64,000 bases of DNA, taken from the NCBI GenBank assembly GCA_027459625.1, contig DAIDHP010000004.1, forward strand, positions 62,001-126,000, read 5' to 3'. This DNA comes from Chthonomonadales bacterium. GTDB taxonomy: Bacteria; Armatimonadota; Chthonomonadetes; Chthonomonadales; CAJBBX01. Made by a program: the position numbers and the translations under genes. This document shows, in pieces, positions 34,442-43,642 of the stretch. The notes beneath the pieces are model-generated. The model ran no database searches. It saw only the letters and a program-made list of their open reading frames with translations, and was not told the DNA's origin. Every line of letters starts with the position of its first letter. Positions within the stretch are counted from its first letter, which is position 1.

Positions 34442-35476
34442 TTAAGTCCGTTGACAAAAAATCTGCGACACGGCGTCCTCCACTTCCTGAATGGTGACGG
34501 CGTCAAGCGCAATGCGCATATCGGCGGGAACGCCTCGTTTGGCGGGGTCTCCATGCGTCAAGGTTTTGTGCTTTGAAGTGTCGTATCCCCAGCGTTTGGC
34601 TTTCGCAGGGGTGAATATCCCCACCGTCGGCGTTCCGAGCGCCACGGCTGCGTGCAGCATCCCTCCGTCATTGCCAATCCACAAATCGCATGCGGCGATC
34701 AAACCCAACGCTTGACGGAGATGGGTTTTCCCCGCGAATGATACGCACGGTTTTCGCATCATTATCTCCACGGACTTGGCGGAATTGATCTCCTCCTGGC
34801 TCCCCATCAGAATGACCCGTGCCTTTAGGTTTTCAATAAGCCAATCACCGACTCGCGCGTATTTGTACGCCCCCCATTCGCGTATTTCAGGATCATGCGC
34901 ACCGGAATGAATCGCTACTATCGGGCGTTTTCCGGGCGAGATCCCCACCGAGTTCAATCTACGGATTGCCTCCTCCTTTTCGGAGTTTGATAACCATAGC
35001 TCCGGGGTATTCATATCCCCAGGTGAATTTAGTCCGAGAATCGACAGCAGCGATTCTCTTTCAGGTATGTCCCAATTGTATGGTAAGCGATGTGTGAGCA
35101 ACGCTCCACGATGCTCCGTGTCGAATCCAACTCTTACGGGTATGCCAGCAAATTTCGCTATGAGTGCGGAACGAAACGATCTGTCCAGGAGATAAGCGAT
35201 GTCGAAATGAGAGCTTTTCAGTTTTGAAGCCAGGTTCAGGGAGGCTCCGAGACCTTTTACTTCGCTCTTTGCCAAAGCAATATACTCGGACACGTACGGG
35301 CATCCTTGCAACAGAATGGGGATCATCTCACCGCTTAACATGGCAACCTTTGAGTCCGTTAGATATCCGTTGAGAGCTCGAAGAAATGGGGTGGCTACGA
35401 TAGTATCCCCCATGTAACCCGCTTTGGTCACGACAAGCGCTTTTTGTATTTTGGATTTGTCGTATTCCTTGCTCAT
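34442..35476 (-). CDS. Glycosyltransferase family 9 (heptosyltransferase-like)
   Basis: A 344-residue GT-B enzyme of the ADP-heptose:LPS heptosyltransferase family. The N-terminal VVTKAGYMGDTIVATPFLRALN matches the GxxGDxxxxxP motif of WaaF/WaaC. In the C-terminal domain, IVAIHSGAHDPEIREWG and WIGNDGGMLHAAVALGTPTVGIF form the nucleotide-sugar site. It overlaps the end of the preceding GT9 gene by ATGA, so the two are translationally coupled. It probably adds a sugar, likely a heptose or other core residue, to lipid A-Kdo. I cannot say which. Confidence 0.85.
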   Translation of the reverse strand: MSKEYDKSKIQKALVVTKAGYMGDTIVATPFLRALNGYLTDSKVAMLSGEMIPILLQGCPYVSEYIALAKSEVKGLGASLNLASKLKSSHFDIAYLLDRSFRSALIAKFAGIPVRVGFDTEHRGALLTHRLPYNWDIPERESLLSILGLNSPGDMNTPELWLSNSEKEEAIRRLNSVGISPGKRPIVAIHSGAHDPEIREWGAYKYARVGDWLIENLKARVILMGSQEEINSAKSVEIMMRKPCVSFAGKTHLRQALGLIAACDLWIGNDGGMLHAAVALGTPTVGIFTPAKAKRWGYDTSKHKTLTHGDPAKRGVPADMRIALDAVTIQEVEDAVSQIFCQRT

Positions 35477-36612
35477 CGATGTTCGATACCTTTATCCTCC
35501 AACAGCTTGATCGCTTTTGCGACCACCTCCTCTACGGTAATGGACGCGATGCAGGCGGGAGGCGGGGAGAGGCATTTCTGTTTGCTGTTAATCGGAGCGG
35601 TTTCGTGAAATCTCCGGCACGCCTCCTTGCACATTTCTCGATGATGGATTACATTTTGAAATTGACCGTAAGGTGCCAGTCTATCCGGATTGCTTCTGCC
35701 GAACAACGAAATGACCGGTGTCCCCAATGCCGCCGCCACATGAGCGGAACCTGTGTCCCCACAGAGATGGAGATGACAATGCTTCAGTATTGCCATCATT
35801 TGCTTCAAATTCGTCTTTCCCACTACGCTGGAGGGATTCCATTTTGTGCGGGAGAGTATACTCTTCTCCTCCTCGACATCCCCATTGCCACCGATGAGAA
35901 CAATCTGTAGACCTGTTTTCGAGGTGAAGGAGTCGATGAACGCGGAGAATTTTTCAGCACCCCAACCCTTATTTCCCCCGCCGCCTGAAGAGGGATTGAC
36001 AACCAGAAACGGATGCTTTAAATCCATACCCGCATGTTCAAGCAAATCCAGTGCTCTTTTTTCTTCGTCAGGCGGTATGGATAGTGGGAATTTTATTGTC
36101 GTGTTCTTGGCTCCGAGATACCTTGCCACGTCCATAAACTGATCCACGACGTGCACGCTTTCAGGTTGTCTCGGAATGCGTTGAAGAAGAAAAGGCGCCA
36201 ACTCGCGCAGCCAATCATATCCGTATCGATATTTCGCACCGGACGCCCATGCGATGAGCGCGCTCTTGCTTAGTCCTTGCAAGTCTATGACGGCGTCAAA
36301 ACGTCGCGCTCTCAATTCCTTTCGTATTTCCGCGAATAGCCTTGCGGATCCTATGCTCATTCTATTCTTACGCCAGTCGGCGGGAAGAGTGATCACCTCC
36401 TCCAGATAAGGATTGCCTTGGACTATGGGATCCGCCATTCGCTCCACCACCCAGCTTATTTTGAGGTGAGGATGGGTTTCCTTCAGAGCCGCGCTCACCG
36501 GCAAGGCGTGAACGACATCTCCAATGGAACTTAGTTTAACGATTAGAAGGTTCCGCACCTTGGACATATCCGGCGGGCTCTGCAAGTCTGGGATTGTCAT
36601 GGATACGCTCAT
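35473..36612 (-). CDS. Glycosyltransferase family 9 (heptosyltransferase-like)
   Basis: A 379-residue second GT9 enzyme. NLLIVKLSSIGDVVHALPVSAAL is a textbook WaaC/WaaF N-terminus, and LVVNPSSGGGGNKGWGAEKFS and HLCGDTGSAHVAAALGTPVISLFG are the C-terminal sugar-nucleotide motifs. Two Cys-rich positions near the end (MCKEACRRFHETAPINSKQKC) are also seen in heptosyltransferase relatives. I start at ATG 36612, whose ATGA overlaps the acyltransferase stop; 36567 is a later alternative. With the next gene it suggests a core of at least two added sugars. Confidence 0.88.
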   Translation of the reverse strand: MSVSMTIPDLQSPPDMSKVRNLLIVKLSSIGDVVHALPVSAALKETHPHLKISWVVERMADPIVQGNPYLEEVITLPADWRKNRMSIGSARLFAEIRKELRARRFDAVIDLQGLSKSALIAWASGAKYRYGYDWLRELAPFLLQRIPRQPESVHVVDQFMDVARYLGAKNTTIKFPLSIPPDEEKRALDLLEHAGMDLKHPFLVVNPSSGGGGNKGWGAEKFSAFIDSFTSKTGLQIVLIGGNGDVEEEKSILSRTKWNPSSVVGKTNLKQMMAILKHCHLHLCGDTGSAHVAAALGTPVISLFGRSNPDRLAPYGQFQNVIHHREMCKEACRRFHETAPINSKQKCLSPPPACIASITVEEVVAKAIKLLEDKGIEHR

Positions 36613-37529
36613 TTCGTAGCTTCGTTCGTCGGAGTGACACCGATATTCGAGGATTTCCATCGGTTATGGAACCACAGCCATTGTTCGGGATGCTCTCGTA
36701 TCATCTCCTCAAGTTTCGCATTAATCTCAGTGGTAATACGAATGATATCCGCTTTTTCATCCCCCGTGGATTCCGGAAGAAGCGAGCCAAATGATTGGTA
36801 GCGATAAAACCCCGGTTTCGTACGATATCCGGCGAAAAAGAGTATTGGAGCGGACATTTTCAATGATATCCGCGCAGGTCCGTCAGCCGTGCCTGTCATG
36901 TGTCCGAAAAAGGGAACGAATACGTCCGATGCGTTCTGATCGCAAATGATCGCGATTATCTGGTTCCGCTTAAGAGCTTGCAGGATGGACTTGATGGAAC
37001 CGCGAATCGAGATCGGCGTGATTCCATTTTTTCTTCGCAAATCGTTCATAATCTCAGTGGTCCCTTGGTCCCTTGCTTCTCTCATCAGGGCGTAAAGATC
37101 ATGGTGACGCAGTTCAAGCCATTTCGCTCCAAGCTCGAAATTGCCCAGATGACCTGTTAGCATTAGGCATCCCTTATTCATCTTCAAAAGGTGAGTGAGG
37201 TCGTCGTAAAGTTGCATCTCTATACGCTCCTCCACTTCCTCAGGCGGAATTTGGGAGGATTTGATGCTCTCCACCGCAAACATGCCAAACTGACGAAACG
37301 ATTCCTTGGCAATGCGTATTTTTTCCTCCTGTGACTTCGTATCTCCGTAGGCGATGTCCAAATTCCTCAGAGCGATTCGGTAACGTTTCTTTGACGTAAT
37401 ACGCATCAGGTTTCCAAAGAACCTGCCAATGGCGAGACTGGAATTATAAGGGACAAGTCGCAGGATCAACATCAGTCCCCGCAAAAACCCTCTGCCTATC
37501 GCCCTTAAGATCGCTTTTCGACGTTCCAT
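36609..37529 (-). CDS. lpxL: Lipid A late acyltransferase (LpxL/HtrB family)
   Basis: A 306-residue membrane-associated acyltransferase that adds a secondary acyl chain to lipid A precursors. The active-site HX4E motif is in MLTGHLGNFELGAKWL (about 122-137), and an N-terminal hydrophobic segment anchors it. Downstream, IAIICDQNASDVFVPFFGH is a family block. It overlaps lpxK by 25 nt upstream and the GT9 gene by 4 nt downstream, so it is in one operon. Whether it acts as LpxL or LpxM cannot be told. Confidence 0.86.
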   Translation of the reverse strand: MERRKAILRAIGRGFLRGLMLILRLVPYNSSLAIGRFFGNLMRITSKKRYRIALRNLDIAYGDTKSQEEKIRIAKESFRQFGMFAVESIKSSQIPPEEVEERIEMQLYDDLTHLLKMNKGCLMLTGHLGNFELGAKWLELRHHDLYALMREARDQGTTEIMNDLRRKNGITPISIRGSIKSILQALKRNQIIAIICDQNASDVFVPFFGHMTGTADGPARISLKMSAPILFFAGYRTKPGFYRYQSFGSLLPESTGDEKADIIRITTEINAKLEEMIREHPEQWLWFHNRWKSSNIGVTPTNEATK

Positions 37530-38632
37530 GATTCCCGTTTTCCATTCACTGTTTTTCTAATCATAGCAAAGAAACCGTCCTCGTCATCAAGTATCTGCCG
37601 CACGATAAGCGCGTAAAACGGAAGGGGTCGCGAAATTGGCGGGAGCTTGACAGCATCCTTCTCCGATACGACTATACACTCTGCGCCGTTGTTCTCCGCT
37701 TCCATCATCAGCTTTTGCAAATCACCCATTTTTGGCTCTTGATGGTCCGCCAAGCGCAAGGAAGCCTTGTTGATCGCACCCTCACGGTTCAGTTGCTCCT
37801 CGAAATTGTCAGGATTGCCAAGAGCGCAGAAGCTTGCGATATGCCTGCCTGATAACCATGCGGAGGGGAGAGCGTGGGAACCGTCCAGCGCTCTCAAGCA
37901 CTCGACCTGATAGCATGCCGTGTATATTTTCGTGCGATGAGTAATCCCTATAATTCGTTTCCGAAGGCGGTCCAACTCATCGGTCGACACCTTGTCCGCG
38001 TTTGTTATCACCACGCACTGGGCGCGTCGAAGATGCGACGGAGGTTCTCGAAGCAGACCTAAGGGAAACACGTTTCCGTTCCCGAATGGATTGGTGGCAT
38101 CCACCAAGGCGATCTCCAAATCCCGGTATAATTGATAATACTGCATGCCATCATCCAATACAATCGCCTTAGGGTGGAACTCCTCCCACGCCATCATCCC
38201 CGTTCGCCTTCGATCCCTTCCCACCAGCACTGGGGTGTTCCAAAGCAGCGAAGCCAAAAGGTGCGCCTCGTCTCCCGCTTTACGAGCGTTTAGAAAGATA
38301 CGCTCCCCATTGGAAACAATCGCGGCGTCGTTCTCGTTTTCTCCCAGATACCCTCTGTTGAGCACGCATGTTTTGATCTGGTTGTCGATGAGATATTCGC
38401 ATATCCGGATGGTTATGGAGGTTTTGCCGGTTCCGCCCACGCTGATGTTCCCGATGCTTATCACAGTACAGGGAAGTCGATACTGTTTTCGCAATCCCAA
38501 ACGATAAGGCGCCAAATATGTTTTAAGCCCCGCTGCATAGAGATAAGAGAGGGGTTTTAGGGCTCCTTTGACAAGCAACGCATCTATTCCCTTGCGTTCG
38601 CCTTTTATGATGGATAGAAGATAGTCTTTCAT
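37505..38632 (-). CDS. lpxK: Tetraacyldisaccharide 4'-kinase
   Basis: A 375-residue kinase that phosphorylates the 4' position of lipid A disaccharide at the inner membrane. Walker A is SVGGTGKTS inside VISIGNISVGGTGKTSITIRI (about 56-76), and VLDDGMQYYQLYRDLEIALVD is the conserved active-site segment. It lies between kdtA and the acyltransferase, in pathway order. Length is slightly above the E. coli enzyme. Firm identification. Confidence 0.93.
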   Translation of the reverse strand: MKDYLLSIIKGERKGIDALLVKGALKPLSYLYAAGLKTYLAPYRLGLRKQYRLPCTVISIGNISVGGTGKTSITIRICEYLIDNQIKTCVLNRGYLGENENDAAIVSNGERIFLNARKAGDEAHLLASLLWNTPVLVGRDRRRTGMMAWEEFHPKAIVLDDGMQYYQLYRDLEIALVDATNPFGNGNVFPLGLLREPPSHLRRAQCVVITNADKVSTDELDRLRKRIIGITHRTKIYTACYQVECLRALDGSHALPSAWLSGRHIASFCALGNPDNFEEQLNREGAINKASLRLADHQEPKMGDLQKLMMEAENNGAECIVVSEKDAVKLPPISRPLPFYALIVRQILDDEDGFFAMIRKTVNGKRESWNVEKRS

Positions 38633-38663: not shown

Positions 38664-39842
38664 TCATTGCCGTGCCGAATTGGTTATGTTGAGCAGTTCC
38701 GCCATTGTTTGCGCGTATCTTTGCGATGCTCCTCGGTTTTTTCGAATGAGAGCGGGACCGTCGACCCTTATGCGGGTTTTTAACTCATTGTCACGAATTA
38801 TGTTCATTGCTTTCGAATAGAGATCATTCGCGTCTCGCACTTCCCAGCCAGTTTCGGATGACTTCATCATCGCCACGATATCCCTGAAATTCGTCATGTA
38901 AGGCCCGAAGAGTGTCGGCGTGCCTTGTGCCAAGGGCTGAAGGGGCGATTGCCCTCCGCCTGGAGGCAGCATGCTATTTCCCACAAACGCCACATCCGCC
39001 AGCGCGTACACATTCACCAGTTCCCCGAAACTGTTCAGGATAATCTGCGTCGGTGGATGGGTGATCTCCTTCAATTCGGATCTCATGACCGGCTCCAGCC
39101 CTCTTGAACGCATGGCGGCGGCGATCTCCTCTGATCTCTCGATGTGTCTTGGAGCGTGAATTAACACCAAATCCGGTATCTCTTTCAACAACCGTGTGTA
39201 TGCGTCCAGAATGCAACTCTCCTCCTCCGGCGTGCGCGTGCTTCCAACCACCCATACAGGCGCACCGGGAGGCAGACGGAATTCGCACATCAGATCCCTG
39301 CGCCGCTCTTCATTCAATGGTTCGGATATCTGGTCGAATTTGGCGTTGCCAGCCACCTGCGTACTCCCTTGACAAGCCCCCAGCTCCATATATCGCGCCA
39401 AGTCCGTTTCCGTTTGCACGAGTATGCGGTCGAAATGGGAAAGTGACCATCGTATGAACCGTTTGAAGCGGCGATACCTCGGCAGGCTTTTATCCGATAT
39501 CCTACCATTAATCAGACATATCCTTGCGCCGCTTGAGCGCGTAAGATATAACAGGTTCGGCCATATCTCCGTCTCCAGAATGACAAGTTCGTCCGGTTTT
39601 ATGGCTTCGATAAACCGCTTCACCGCGAATGGGAGATCAAACGGAGCGTAGAGCGCCTCCGTGAGAAGCTTGCCCTTCAATTTTTGCGCCACCTCGAATC
39701 CGCCCGGGGTTATTACGCTCATTACGATCTCATCCTCCGGGTGCAGTTCCTTGTACGCCTTGATTACCGGCTCCGACGCCATTACCTCGCCCACCGAGGC
39801 GGCGTGTATCCAGATTCTCTTACGGGTATCGCTTTTCGGCAT
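38664..39842 (-). CDS. kdtA: Kdo transferase WaaA/KdtA (N-terminus probably mis-started or broken)
   Basis: From the first available ATG the protein is 392 residues. HAASVGEVMASEPVI holds the catalytic Glu; GSTRTPEEESCI and GNSMLPPGGGQSPLQPLAQG are the CMP-Kdo motifs. The usual N-terminal membrane anchor is missing from this frame, yet the 42 codons upstream (to 39966) read in frame as IYYLYNTLLILLSPALAIHL and then LVLRLFAGKSREGWRQRWG, a perfect KdtA anchor. No ATG, GTG or TTG exists there. An ATG with a ribosome site at 39997 is out of frame because of a 26-bp insertion. It may be a frameshifted gene, or one using a rare start codon. It transfers Kdo to lipid IVA. Confidence 0.88.
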   Translation of the reverse strand: MPKSDTRKRIWIHAASVGEVMASEPVIKAYKELHPEDEIVMSVITPGGFEVAQKLKGKLLTEALYAPFDLPFAVKRFIEAIKPDELVILETEIWPNLLYLTRSSGARICLINGRISDKSLPRYRRFKRFIRWSLSHFDRILVQTETDLARYMELGACQGSTQVAGNAKFDQISEPLNEERRRDLMCEFRLPPGAPVWVVGSTRTPEEESCILDAYTRLLKEIPDLVLIHAPRHIERSEEIAAAMRSRGLEPVMRSELKEITHPPTQIILNSFGELVNVYALADVAFVGNSMLPPGGGQSPLQPLAQGTPTLFGPYMTNFRDIVAMMKSSETGWEVRDANDLYSKAMNIIRDNELKTRIRVDGPALIRKNRGASQRYAQTMAELLNITNSARQ

Positions 39843-39962
39843 AGTCGGGATATCGCCCCATCGTTGTCGCCAGCCCTCTCGGGATTTGCCTGCAAAAAGA
39901 CGTAGGACGAGGTGGATCGCAAGCGCCGGGGAGAGAAGTATCAGTAATGTGTTGTATAGATA

Positions 39963-40012
39963 ATAGATCGCCGAGTGCCTCTTGAAGGATAGATCATGTA
40001 ATAGTTACCTCT
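39963..40012. repeat. Imperfect tandem duplication at the kdtA 5' end
   Basis: ATAGATC occurs at 39963-39969 and again at 39989-39995, exactly 26 bp apart, and CCTCT (ribosome-site complement) at 39978-39982 and 40008-40012. On the minus strand each unit is AGAGG followed by GATCTAT. Removing 26 bp joins the ATG at 39997 to the in-frame kdtA anchor, giving MIYYLYNTLL. Confidence 0.65.
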
Positions 40013-40063
40013 TTTATGATACCCGTTTACGACTTTCACTAAGAGAATGCCGGGGAAGCTGGA

Positions 40064-40324: not shown

Positions 40325-43300
40325 ATGAATGTATCATGTATCCATACGATTCAATGGAGGGTATCCATGTTTTTGAGTATGTCTCAGTGTAATCGCGGAA
40401 GGTGTCAAAACGCGATTCATCTTGTCATAGCCTTCATTGGCGCATGCGTTCTGTTGCGCACTTCCACTGCGTATTCGCAGAACTTGTCCAGCCGCAACTG
40501 GGGCGAAATAACTGCGCCGACATACGGCATGGTCCAAAAAGGGCTCTTCCACGGCGCGGAGCTTTTCGCAGGACCCAACCAGTTCGACGGGAACTATTTC
40601 CACGGCGTTCTGCCCAATGGCAAGATAGTCAAGCCTGCAGGGGTTACGGTTCAAGTAGGCATGAATCCGCTTGGAGTCGCCTTGACTCCCGACGGAAAGT
40701 ATCTCGTCACTAGCAACGACGATGAGAGGGGGTTTGGATATCCCCCGCACTCCTCGCCCGTGGTTATGCCAAGTCTCATTAACCCGGTCAATGAGGGATA
40801 CTATTCACTAAGCGTTATTCGTACCTCCGATATGCATGTTATTTCGCAAATAAATACCGACGGACGATACTTTATCGGCTTGCAGATCACAGGCGGTGGA
40901 CCCTATACGATTTGGGCGTCCGGGGGAGGGGATAACGATGTCAAAATCTACGATCTTTCCACCTCAGGGGAAATCATCAAACTGCACTCGGCGATTTCGA
41001 CAAAACCAATTCTTCCTGCGAACTTGGGGTACGTTTCCCATTACACCCCCGCAGCCACATTCGGGGAGAGAGGGTCGAATGGATATCCGCCTCCTGTTCC
41101 CAGCGGATTCTCGCGGCCTGCCGTCAACCGAGATGGTTCCATCAGAAATCCCGGTGGCGCGGCTATCACCTTTCCCGCAGGCATAGCTCTAGGCGACAAC
41201 GGCAAATACCTTTATGTTGCGTGTGACGGGGATAACAGTATCGCTGTCATCGATACGAAAACCAGAACGGTAGTGGCGCGAAAGCCGGCGGGTTATTTCC
41301 CTTACGGCGTGTGCGTGAGCGAGAGCGGAAAATACGCAGCGGTTTCCAACTGGGGGGTCACAGCATATCGATTTAAGAATTCAAAATACGATTCGAACGG
41401 GGATTTAAGCGGATTGAAGCCAACACCAGGCAATAAACCTGCGGGTTTTTACGTGCCGATTACCGATGACAAGGGGAAATTCCCCAAAACATCCTCGGTT
41501 TCGATTTATCACATCTCCTCGGTTGCCGGCAAACTCATTCAACCAACTGGAGCCGTGTATCTGGGGCGTCCATTGGATAGCGAAAAAATAGTCGGAGGGA
41601 CTCATCCTTCGGCGATGTCTTTGGTGGGGAAGCCCGGGAATGAGATATTGTATGTTTTGCGCACCAATGATGACAGCATCGCTCTCGTCCGAATACGGGA
41701 TGGGAAACGGATAGGATCGTTTAACCTCTCCCCGTTAAGAGGGAGATTTAATTCAGCCAGACCCATTTACGGGGCTTATCCCAACGCGATCGTGGAATCA
41801 CCGGATCATAAACGAGTCTACGTTGCGGAAGCAGGAATAAACGCGGTGGCCGTGCTGAATACTGTGAACCCCGAGCGCCCCATATTGGTGAGTTATATTC
41901 CGGCGGGTTGGTATCCCACGGCATTGGCGATAAGCAAAAACGGCAAGTATCTCTATATCGTGAATGCGAAGGGGATAGGGGAGGACCGAAACCATATCGA
42001 GGATAATCCCACCGCCACGGGGATCATGTCATTCTCCGATAGCAACTATATCTTTGGCACGGCGCAAAAAGTGGATTTGTCTCGAATCAAACCGTCCGGC
42101 GGTACGGTGCTGAACCTGAGTTACAGAGTTCACCCGAGAAAGAATCAAAAAATCGTCCCAATAGGATCTCACCCATCGAAAGTGATCACTCATGTATTTT
42201 TTATCATGCAGGAGAATAAGACTTTCGATTCCATGCTTGGTAACCAGAAACACTTTGGTCCCTACGCCAGCACCACCTTTAACAATCCTTTCGGGGAGCG
42301 ATTCCGAAAGGGGTGGGGGGATAATGCGAATGGTTCTCCCTTTGCGGATCCCCAATACACACCGGTGGCGCTTAATACTCAGCGTCTTGCGGACTCCTTT
42401 TCAACCGCCGTTAATTATTACTCGGATTCCGAGGAGAGCGATGCGGGACATCAGTTCTGCGCATCCGGAACCGCCTCAGATTACTCGGAAAAGACGCTGC
42501 TGGTGAAGTCTGGTCGTGGCTTGCTGGTGAATAAGAACTTCGAACCGGAGGATTATCCTGAATCCGGTTATATCTTCAATAACTCTGCCAGAAGCGGAGT
42601 TTCGTTCAAGGATTACGGCGATATGATCCGAATCGAGGGGACAGATACTGGTTCCAGCACACCCACTCGTATTAATGACCCCCTAAGCGGTAACGCAGGA
42701 GCCCCCCGTTTGAATGCGGAAGGCGGAGTAGCGCAGCCTTTGGAGGATGCAGGGGATGTCACCACCCCAACGCGGGGATTGGGGCAATCCTATTTCCTCG
42801 CGTTGCCCGGATTGGCTGTTCTTGGCGGAAGGAATCGTAACGGCGAGTTCAGATTGGATCGCAATTATCCCGGATATAACTTCAATATCTCCGATCAGAG
42901 AAGAGCATTGGAGTTTATACGCGATTACCGCCGAATGGAGAAGAGCGGAACCACACCGCAGTTCCTTTACATCTATCTGCCCGACGACCATACGGGAGGG
43001 GTGAGCGCACCCAACAGATCGAATGTCTTCACAAGGTCCCCGATGCAACAGGTGGCGGACGGGGATGTGGCTTTGGGCATGGTGGTGCAAGCGATTATGA
43101 AAAGCCCATTGTACTACAATCCCAAAACAGGGAAAGGGAGCGCCATATTCATCACCTACGATGACGCGCAAGCGACCTTGGATCACATCCATCAGCATCG
43201 GACCCCACTGATTCTGGTGAGTCCTTATGCGAAGCCGGGCTATCTTGCCAAGGAGCACTATAGCACTGCATCCATAGTCAAAACGGAGGAATTGCTGCTT

Positions 43301-43642
43301 GGCATGCCGCCGAATAACCTCGGAGATCTTTTCTCAACGGATTTACGGGATATGTTTCAGGATAGATACAACCACATCACCGCGAGCGATATCGCTTTTA
43401 CGCGGCGTATCTCCTACAAGCCGTCCAAGGAAGGCGAAAAAATATGGCGGCTTGCCTCCAAGTTGGATTGCGCGGAGCCGGATCAGGATAGCGAGAGGCT
43501 GGGTCGTTTGGCGCGTCTTTCCATAATGGCGGATAGGCTTCATTACAAGCAGAACGGTCCCTGGAGGGTAAGTTCTCGGGAGTATGTGTCGGAGCAGAAG
43601 GATTTGTATCAAATCGCACTGCAGGTGGTGAATAGCGATTAG
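40325..43642 (+). CDS. Secreted YVTN beta-propeller/phosphoesterase fusion
   Basis: A 1105-residue exported protein. The first half (about 80-590) is a seven-bladed YncE/YVTN-type propeller with blades such as KYLYVACDGDNSIAVIDTKT and KRVYVAEAGINAVAVLNTV. The second half (about 610-1000) is an alkaline-phosphatase-like phosphoesterase domain (acid phosphatase/phospholipase C family): VTHVFFIMQENKTFDSMLG, SDAGHQFCASG, YIYLPDDHTGG and FITYDDAQATLDHIHQHRTPLILVSPYA. It may cleave phosphate mono- or diesters in the periplasm. Two starts have good ribosome sites: ATG 40325 and ATG 40367; the later gives a shorter signal-peptide n-region. It is on the opposite strand from the surrounding LPS genes. 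Confidence 0.85.
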   Translation: MNVSCIHTIQWRVSMFLSMSQCNRGRCQNAIHLVIAFIGACVLLRTSTAYSQNLSSRNWGEITAPTYGMVQKGLFHGAELFAGPNQFDGNYFHGVLPNGKIVKPAGVTVQVGMNPLGVALTPDGKYLVTSNDDERGFGYPPHSSPVVMPSLINPVNEGYYSLSVIRTSDMHVISQINTDGRYFIGLQITGGGPYTIWASGGGDNDVKIYDLSTSGEIIKLHSAISTKPILPANLGYVSHYTPAATFGERGSNGYPPPVPSGFSRPAVNRDGSIRNPGGAAITFPAGIALGDNGKYLYVACDGDNSIAVIDTKTRTVVARKPAGYFPYGVCVSESGKYAAVSNWGVTAYRFKNSKYDSNGDLSGLKPTPGNKPAGFYVPITDDKGKFPKTSSVSIYHISSVAGKLIQPTGAVYLGRPLDSEKIVGGTHPSAMSLVGKPGNEILYVLRTNDDSIALVRIRDGKRIGSFNLSPLRGRFNSARPIYGAYPNAIVESPDHKRVYVAEAGINAVAVLNTVNPERPILVSYIPAGWYPTALAISKNGKYLYIVNAKGIGEDRNHIEDNPTATGIMSFSDSNYIFGTAQKVDLSRIKPSGGTVLNLSYRVHPRKNQKIVPIGSHPSKVITHVFFIMQENKTFDSMLGNQKHFGPYASTTFNNPFGERFRKGWGDNANGSPFADPQYTPVALNTQRLADSFSTAVNYYSDSEESDAGHQFCASGTASDYSEKTLLVKSGRGLLVNKNFEPEDYPESGYIFNNSARSGVSFKDYGDMIRIEGTDTGSSTPTRINDPLSGNAGAPRLNAEGGVAQPLEDAGDVTTPTRGLGQSYFLALPGLAVLGGRNRNGEFRLDRNYPGYNFNISDQRRALEFIRDYRRMEKSGTTPQFLYIYLPDDHTGGVSAPNRSNVFTRSPMQQVADGDVALGMVVQAIMKSPLYYNPKTGKGSAIFITYDDAQATLDHIHQHRTPLILVSPYAKPGYLAKEHYSTASIVKTEELLLGMPPNNLGDLFSTDLRDMFQDRYNHITASDIAFTRRISYKPSKEGEKIWRLASKLDCAEPDQDSERLGRLARLSIMADRLHYKQNGPWRVSSREYVSEQKDLYQIALQVVNSD

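Follow-up and report, generated by a model that had tools for sequence, protein, structure and literature searches.

The kdtA locus and its start region

The window, that is, the whole stretch of 64,000 nucleotides analysed here, carries on its minus strand a kdtA (waaA) gene followed by further genes for lipopolysaccharide synthesis in a presumed operon. Because the neighbour at 40325..43642 (+) is divergent, kdtA is the first gene of its strand here. The features to which the text refers are as follows:

38664..39968 (-): kdtA (waaA), Kdo transferase; from the ATC, an open frame of 434 amino acids plus stop
39966..39968 (-): ATC, proposed kdtA start codon, from the onset of similarity and from ATC/ATT at the equivalent site in relatives
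39978..39983 (-): AAGAGG, the putative Shine-Dalgarno sequence, spaced 9 nt from the ATC
40005..40007 (-): in-frame TAA, seen in the sequence, which rules out a longer KdtA N-terminus
39891..39968 (-): hydrophobic anchor at the KdtA N-terminus, IYYLYNTLLILLSPALAIHLVLRLFA, with 19-residue Kyte-Doolittle means of up to 2.06
39840..39842 (-): ATG at residue 43 of kdtA, the first in frame and the expected choice of an automatic gene caller
39941..39997 (-): out-of-frame mini-ORF, ATG to TGA (MIYPSRGTRRSIIYTTHY), overlapping the kdtA start
37505..38632 (-): lpxK, starting at ATG and next in the presumed operon (PF02606, E 5e-75)
36609..37529 (-): lipid A acyltransferase, lpxL-like (PF03279, E 5e-54)
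35473..36660 (-): heptosyltransferase family, GT9 (PF01075, E 4e-47)
40325..43642 (+): phosphoesterase/beta-propeller gene, divergent (PF04185 and PF10282)

The identity of the protein as a KdtA/WaaA enzyme (GT30) rests on the Glycos_transf_N domain at residues 32-213 (Pfam PF04413, E 5e-58), on similarity to a solved WaaA across both GT-B halves (residues 47-392 against the Aquifex enzyme, PDB 2xci, E 4e-28) and on a hydrophobic N-terminal anchor with a Tyr-Asn motif, in frame from the ATC. The minus-strand frame stays open between the TAA at 40007-40005 and the stop at 38664. From this TAA to the ATG at 39842-39840 its codons read LLHDLSFKRHSA-IYYLYNTLLILLSPALAIHLVLRLFAGKSREGWRQRWGDIPT; there is no ATG, GTG or TTG among them. 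A sequence-only reading of this DNA had placed the KdtA membrane anchor in frame upstream of the first ATG yet without any standard start, and this is what we find, with IYYLYNTLLILLSPALAIHLVLRLFAG encoded in frame upstream of 39842-39840. The in-frame codons between the TAA and the ATC are CTA TTA CAT GAT CTA TCC TTC AAG AGG CAC TCG GCG, and the AAGAGG at 39983-39978 pairs only through GAGG with 3′-UUUCCUCCA (duplex energy -5.8 kcal/mol).

The locus is single copy, with no second intact kdtA in the window’s genome. A promoter and terminator scan of the kdtA leader gave nothing clearly exceeding shuffles, and fold prediction gave one unremarkable structure, judged without a shuffle control. 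The mini-ORF at 39941-39997 is possibly a leader; no counterpart to it was seen in relatives.

Absence of a standard start in related genomes

The window’s genome (G000) belongs to the class Chthonomonadetes (Armatimonadota), as does Chthonomonas calidirosea. In our sample of this class a kdtA match was found in 28 of 31 genomes; most genomes compared are fragmented drafts, presumably metagenome assemblies. Codon positions are counted back from the conserved Tyr-Asn.

Similarity to the relatives’ proteins starts exactly at the window ATC at 39968-39966, with no alignment upstream. In six of the 28 class loci there is no usable ATG, GTG or TTG between the in-frame stop and Tyr-Asn, and every one of the six, from the window’s genus and four others, has ATC or ATT at codon -4 or -5:

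G000 (window): ATC at -4
G003: ATC at -4 (or CTG at -6)
G002: ATT at -4; sole standard codon a TTG just before Tyr
G004: ATC at -4
G025: ATC at -5, with a stop codon immediately before it
G022: ATT at -5

G022 and G025 belong to one genus, so that ATT and ATC occur there at one position. As expected of a natural non-standard start, the stretch from the in-frame stop to conserved protein sequence contains no standard codon, and relatives share a codon at a fixed place, with Shine-Dalgarno pairing that is weak in G003 and G025. The suggestion in the sequence-only reading of a rare ATC start after AAGAGG gains support from these relatives, the closest of which also lack an ATG and have ATC/ATT instead; both the missing standard start and the shared position can be read directly in the genomes.

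The closest relative, G003, has a KdtA 52% identical to that of the window over the whole protein, as against 26 of 42 identical residues in positions 1-42. It reads CTG GCA ATC TAC TAT, with no ATG; the TGA of the upstream gene is followed by 24 nt and then by ATC TAC TAT CTC TAC AAC. Its nearest in-frame standard start is a GTG within the anchor, from which a gene caller would cut the anchor off. In G001, of the window’s own genus, contig ends flank kdtA (G001:C12:13, G001:C185:7) and the gene is missing from the assembly; since this gap falls exactly at kdtA, the comparison holds no near-identical copy. The KdtA proteins of the named genomes compared are all distant (<=34% identical), and in Chthonomonas calidirosea T49 (G015) kdtA has a TTG with strong Shine-Dalgarno pairing.

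Elsewhere a standard start is the rule. None of 90 kdtA loci from other Armatimonadota classes lacks one (Fisher p = 1.1e-4 against 6/28, a value that is indicative only, because the 90 loci are not independent and some families are represented many times), and ATG is found in 16 of 17 loci from other phyla and in Escherichia coli.

Two further arrangements were seen in the class. In the kdtA of G019 (L030) we see no good standard start, and no ATH codon close to the anchor either. In genus g8 (L006, L010) the gene seems to begin well upstream, where a GTGA overlaps the gene before it; this would give an N-terminal extension of about 20-30 residues.

Position and Shine-Dalgarno pairing of the proposed starts

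The assembly of the window’s genome contains no 16S gene, and the anti-Shine-Dalgarno sequence was taken from relatives: the 16S 3′ ends of G001, G012 and G015 carry CACCTCCTTT (anti-Shine-Dalgarno CACCUCCUUU), therefore the ordinary anti-Shine-Dalgarno applies. Where no standard start lies within 12 codons, ATH codons stand at -4 to -6 in 10 of 13 loci from the class versus 3 of 20 from other classes. Predicted Shine-Dalgarno pairing before these ATH codons has a mean of -6.0 kcal/mol, as against -2.8 kcal/mol before in-gene ATH codons (Mann-Whitney p = 3e-4); the mean before standard starts in other classes is -5.0 kcal/mol. Complementarity to the 16S end is a property of these sites seen in the sequence itself. 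The weakly pairing sites of G003 and G025 (-2.2) both lie close behind an upstream gene or an in-frame stop, and translational coupling may help initiation there.

Judging from sequence, AUC-type starts are likely also for kdtA of G030 and of the genus g7 trio (G007, G009, G011), and non-standard starts are possible in G012 and G018; G030, G012 and G018 also carry distant standard codons upstream. The G030 gene has AGGAG-N7-ATC, with a Shine-Dalgarno energy of -8.2. In the g7 trio, indels of 1-2 nt lie just upstream of GGGG-N-ATC, GGGGGTCGTCGCCATCATC (or GGGGAGTGTTCGCCATCATC), and because of them the frame upstream of the ATC is not coding. Downstream of the ATC, comparison of G009 with G007 gives pS 0.31 and pN 0.03, that is, purifying selection, which places the observed onset of coding constraint at this codon. 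In G011 a GTG overlaps its Shine-Dalgarno sequence and would be a poor start.

Alternative explanations for the missing start

Three short repeat copies lie around the kdtA start in addition to the proposed Shine-Dalgarno sequence:

39989..39995 (-): GATCTAT, first copy of a 7-nt repeat
39963..39969 (-): GATCTAT, second copy
40008..40013 (-): AAGAGG, upstream copy, 30 nt (not 26) from the copy at 39983-39978

The sequence-only reading had proposed that a 26-bp duplication removed the start of kdtA, as a recent mutation or an assembly error. On this account an inserted 26-nt unit parted the true ATG (39997) from the gene, leaving gene or assembly damaged. Taking out 26 nt does restore MIYYLYNTLL as stated there, and a start of MIYYLYN would resemble the MIYW(L/I/V)YN of several kdtA genes from other phyla. 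The repeats said to bound the segment, GATCTAT and AGAGG, both occur twice as described, but their spacings differ (26 versus 30 nt). No tandem pair of similar 26-nt units is present: the best match of two such units covers 13 of 26 positions, the 7 repeat bases included, a comparable 7-nt direct repeat at such spacing occurs in 13% of the window’s 81-nt stretches, and 15% of adjacent 30-nt blocks align equally well. Unit comparison, period scan and adjacent-block control at the kdtA start thus gave no signal beyond chance; an old insertion is conceivable, but the copies of GATCTAT and AAGAGG do not speak for one. The closest relative, G003, also lacks the ATG, as do G002 and G004, the three belonging to three other genera and having ATC/ATT instead. 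A private mutation or assembly error is unnecessary, because class relatives from four or more further genera lack a usable ATG, GTG or TTG and do have ATC/ATT. The spacing between AAGAGG and the ATC is appropriate, no stop interrupts the frame downstream, and residues 1-42 are conserved at least as well as the remainder. We regard damage to the gene or assembly as very unlikely.

Translation could instead begin inside the gene, at the ATG at 39842, and yield an anchorless KdtA. This is the first standard start, and the alignment to the solved Aquifex enzyme does not begin before residue 47; such a protein, however, would lose the anchor and, from the PF04413 match, the initial 11 residues (the GKSREGWRQRWG region), the codons upstream are conserved as protein across the class, and no Shine-Dalgarno sequence is evident before this ATG, so that we give this start almost no credence. 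The out-of-frame ATG with a ribosome site that the sequence-only reading had noted further upstream is present at 39997-39995, with AAGAGG 10 nt before it, and its mini-ORF overlaps the kdtA start; a programmed -1 shift from it (the slippage considered there) or reinitiation after the mini-ORF could in principle supply the protein. No slippery site is evident, though, and slippage is unsupported because this ATG is missing in relatives, whereas ATC/ATT is shared; we find such a route scarcely credible. Some other non-standard codon might be used, such as the CTG at -6 in G003, where the sequence is CTG GCA ATC and CTG is a known weak start codon, or the second ATC in G007/G009. In the window, however, the codons between TAA and ATC include no recognised start and the Shine-Dalgarno sequence covers the last of them, making this most unlikely.

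From sequence comparison, then, we consider it highly probable that kdtA is intact and initiated at AUC with AAGAGG, one instance of a recurrent use of AUC/AUU in the class that would give low expression repressible by IF3. Perhaps AUA or CUG is also used for kdtA in the class.

Start codons of other genes in the class

The infC gene begins with ATC, ATA or ATT throughout the class; in the window’s genome (L062, G000:C8 near 109400) it has ATA after CAGGGGGA / CAGGGGGATGACTT. Standard starts were found for lpxK in 24 of 25 class loci and for rpmI in 14 of 14. A sample of 56 reciprocal-best pairs between G000 and G003, which includes some spurious antisense matches, yielded on inspection only infC and kdtA as truly without a standard start. 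The class is therefore not lax in general: starts are normal in lpxK, in rpmI and in the orthologue pairs sampled, and we rejected general start-codon laxity of Chthonomonadetes as an explanation.

lpxB was rejected as a further gene with a non-standard start, as it has a GTG. The lpxK of G017 (L107) has no standard start; it reads GAGGG-TTTT-ATA GAA CTG TAC ATG and may begin at ATA.

Proposed mechanism and relation to known systems

In the proposed mechanism the initiator tRNA would read the AUC at 39968-39966 as Met, with AAGAGG at 39983-39978 serving as its Shine-Dalgarno sequence, and the product would be the complete Kdo transferase of 434 residues, N-terminal membrane anchor included. 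The AUC start would make translation weak, and IF3 would repress it further, as for infC. We infer the initiation at AUC itself, the low yield and the control by IF3, the last from infC and from sigR of Streptomyces, whose GTC start is repressed by IF3 (PMC5472188); by this analogy, translation of kdtA is probably IF3-sensitive. Low and controlled KdtA is plausible because WaaA in E. coli is also limited after translation, by FtsH (PMC6286764). The N-terminal domain surface of Aquifex WaaA is regarded as necessary for membrane association (PMC6286764). A doubtful further possibility is that the Kdo-transfer step in Chthonomonadetes is set by IF3-discriminated AUC/AUU codons that were retained or arose anew several times, coupling outer-membrane synthesis to the translation machinery much like the self-control of infC.

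Among known systems, infC, with its AUU/AUC/AUA start, is alike in having an AUN start with a Shine-Dalgarno sequence, used class-wide and as ATA in this very genome; it differs in that it encodes IF3, the factor that represses such starts, whereas kdtA encodes a lipopolysaccharide enzyme whose link to IF3 we propose by analogy. Streptomyces sigR is a non-infC gene with a lineage-conserved non-standard start that gene callers mis-annotate, as proposed for kdtA, but its GTC is experimentally proven and serves the balance of sigma and anti-sigma factor (PMC5472188). kdtA/waaA genes elsewhere share the protein, the anchor and the start position and differ in the start codon. In Escherichia coli pcnB has an AUU start and low expression, as would kdtA with its proposed AUC/AUU start, though its function is different.

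To our knowledge very few natural genes start outside ATG, GTG and TTG, and gene callers assume none; our literature search found no paper combining kdtA, start codon and AUU. kdtA would thus add to this small set a gene of an essential envelope function. From the class pattern one would expect KdtA to be annotated in truncated form in these genomes, and the recurrent AUC/AUU provides comparative material on the question why selection favours weak starts. The case further illustrates how comparison with relatives can reveal that a gene seemingly broken in a single genome is intact.

Evolutionary history of the start codon

Mapped onto a kdtA tree (28 class rows plus 4 others), the non-standard label requires 6-7 changes, a count that includes uncertain labels, the well-supported branches alone forcing only two; with 6-7 changes the non-standard start was probably gained or lost repeatedly. 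Several kdtA proteins of other phyla begin MIY..YN, and a simple path would be loss of the first codon, after which the second, isoleucine, codon takes over as the start. The kdtA of G006 retains GTG ATC at -5/-4.
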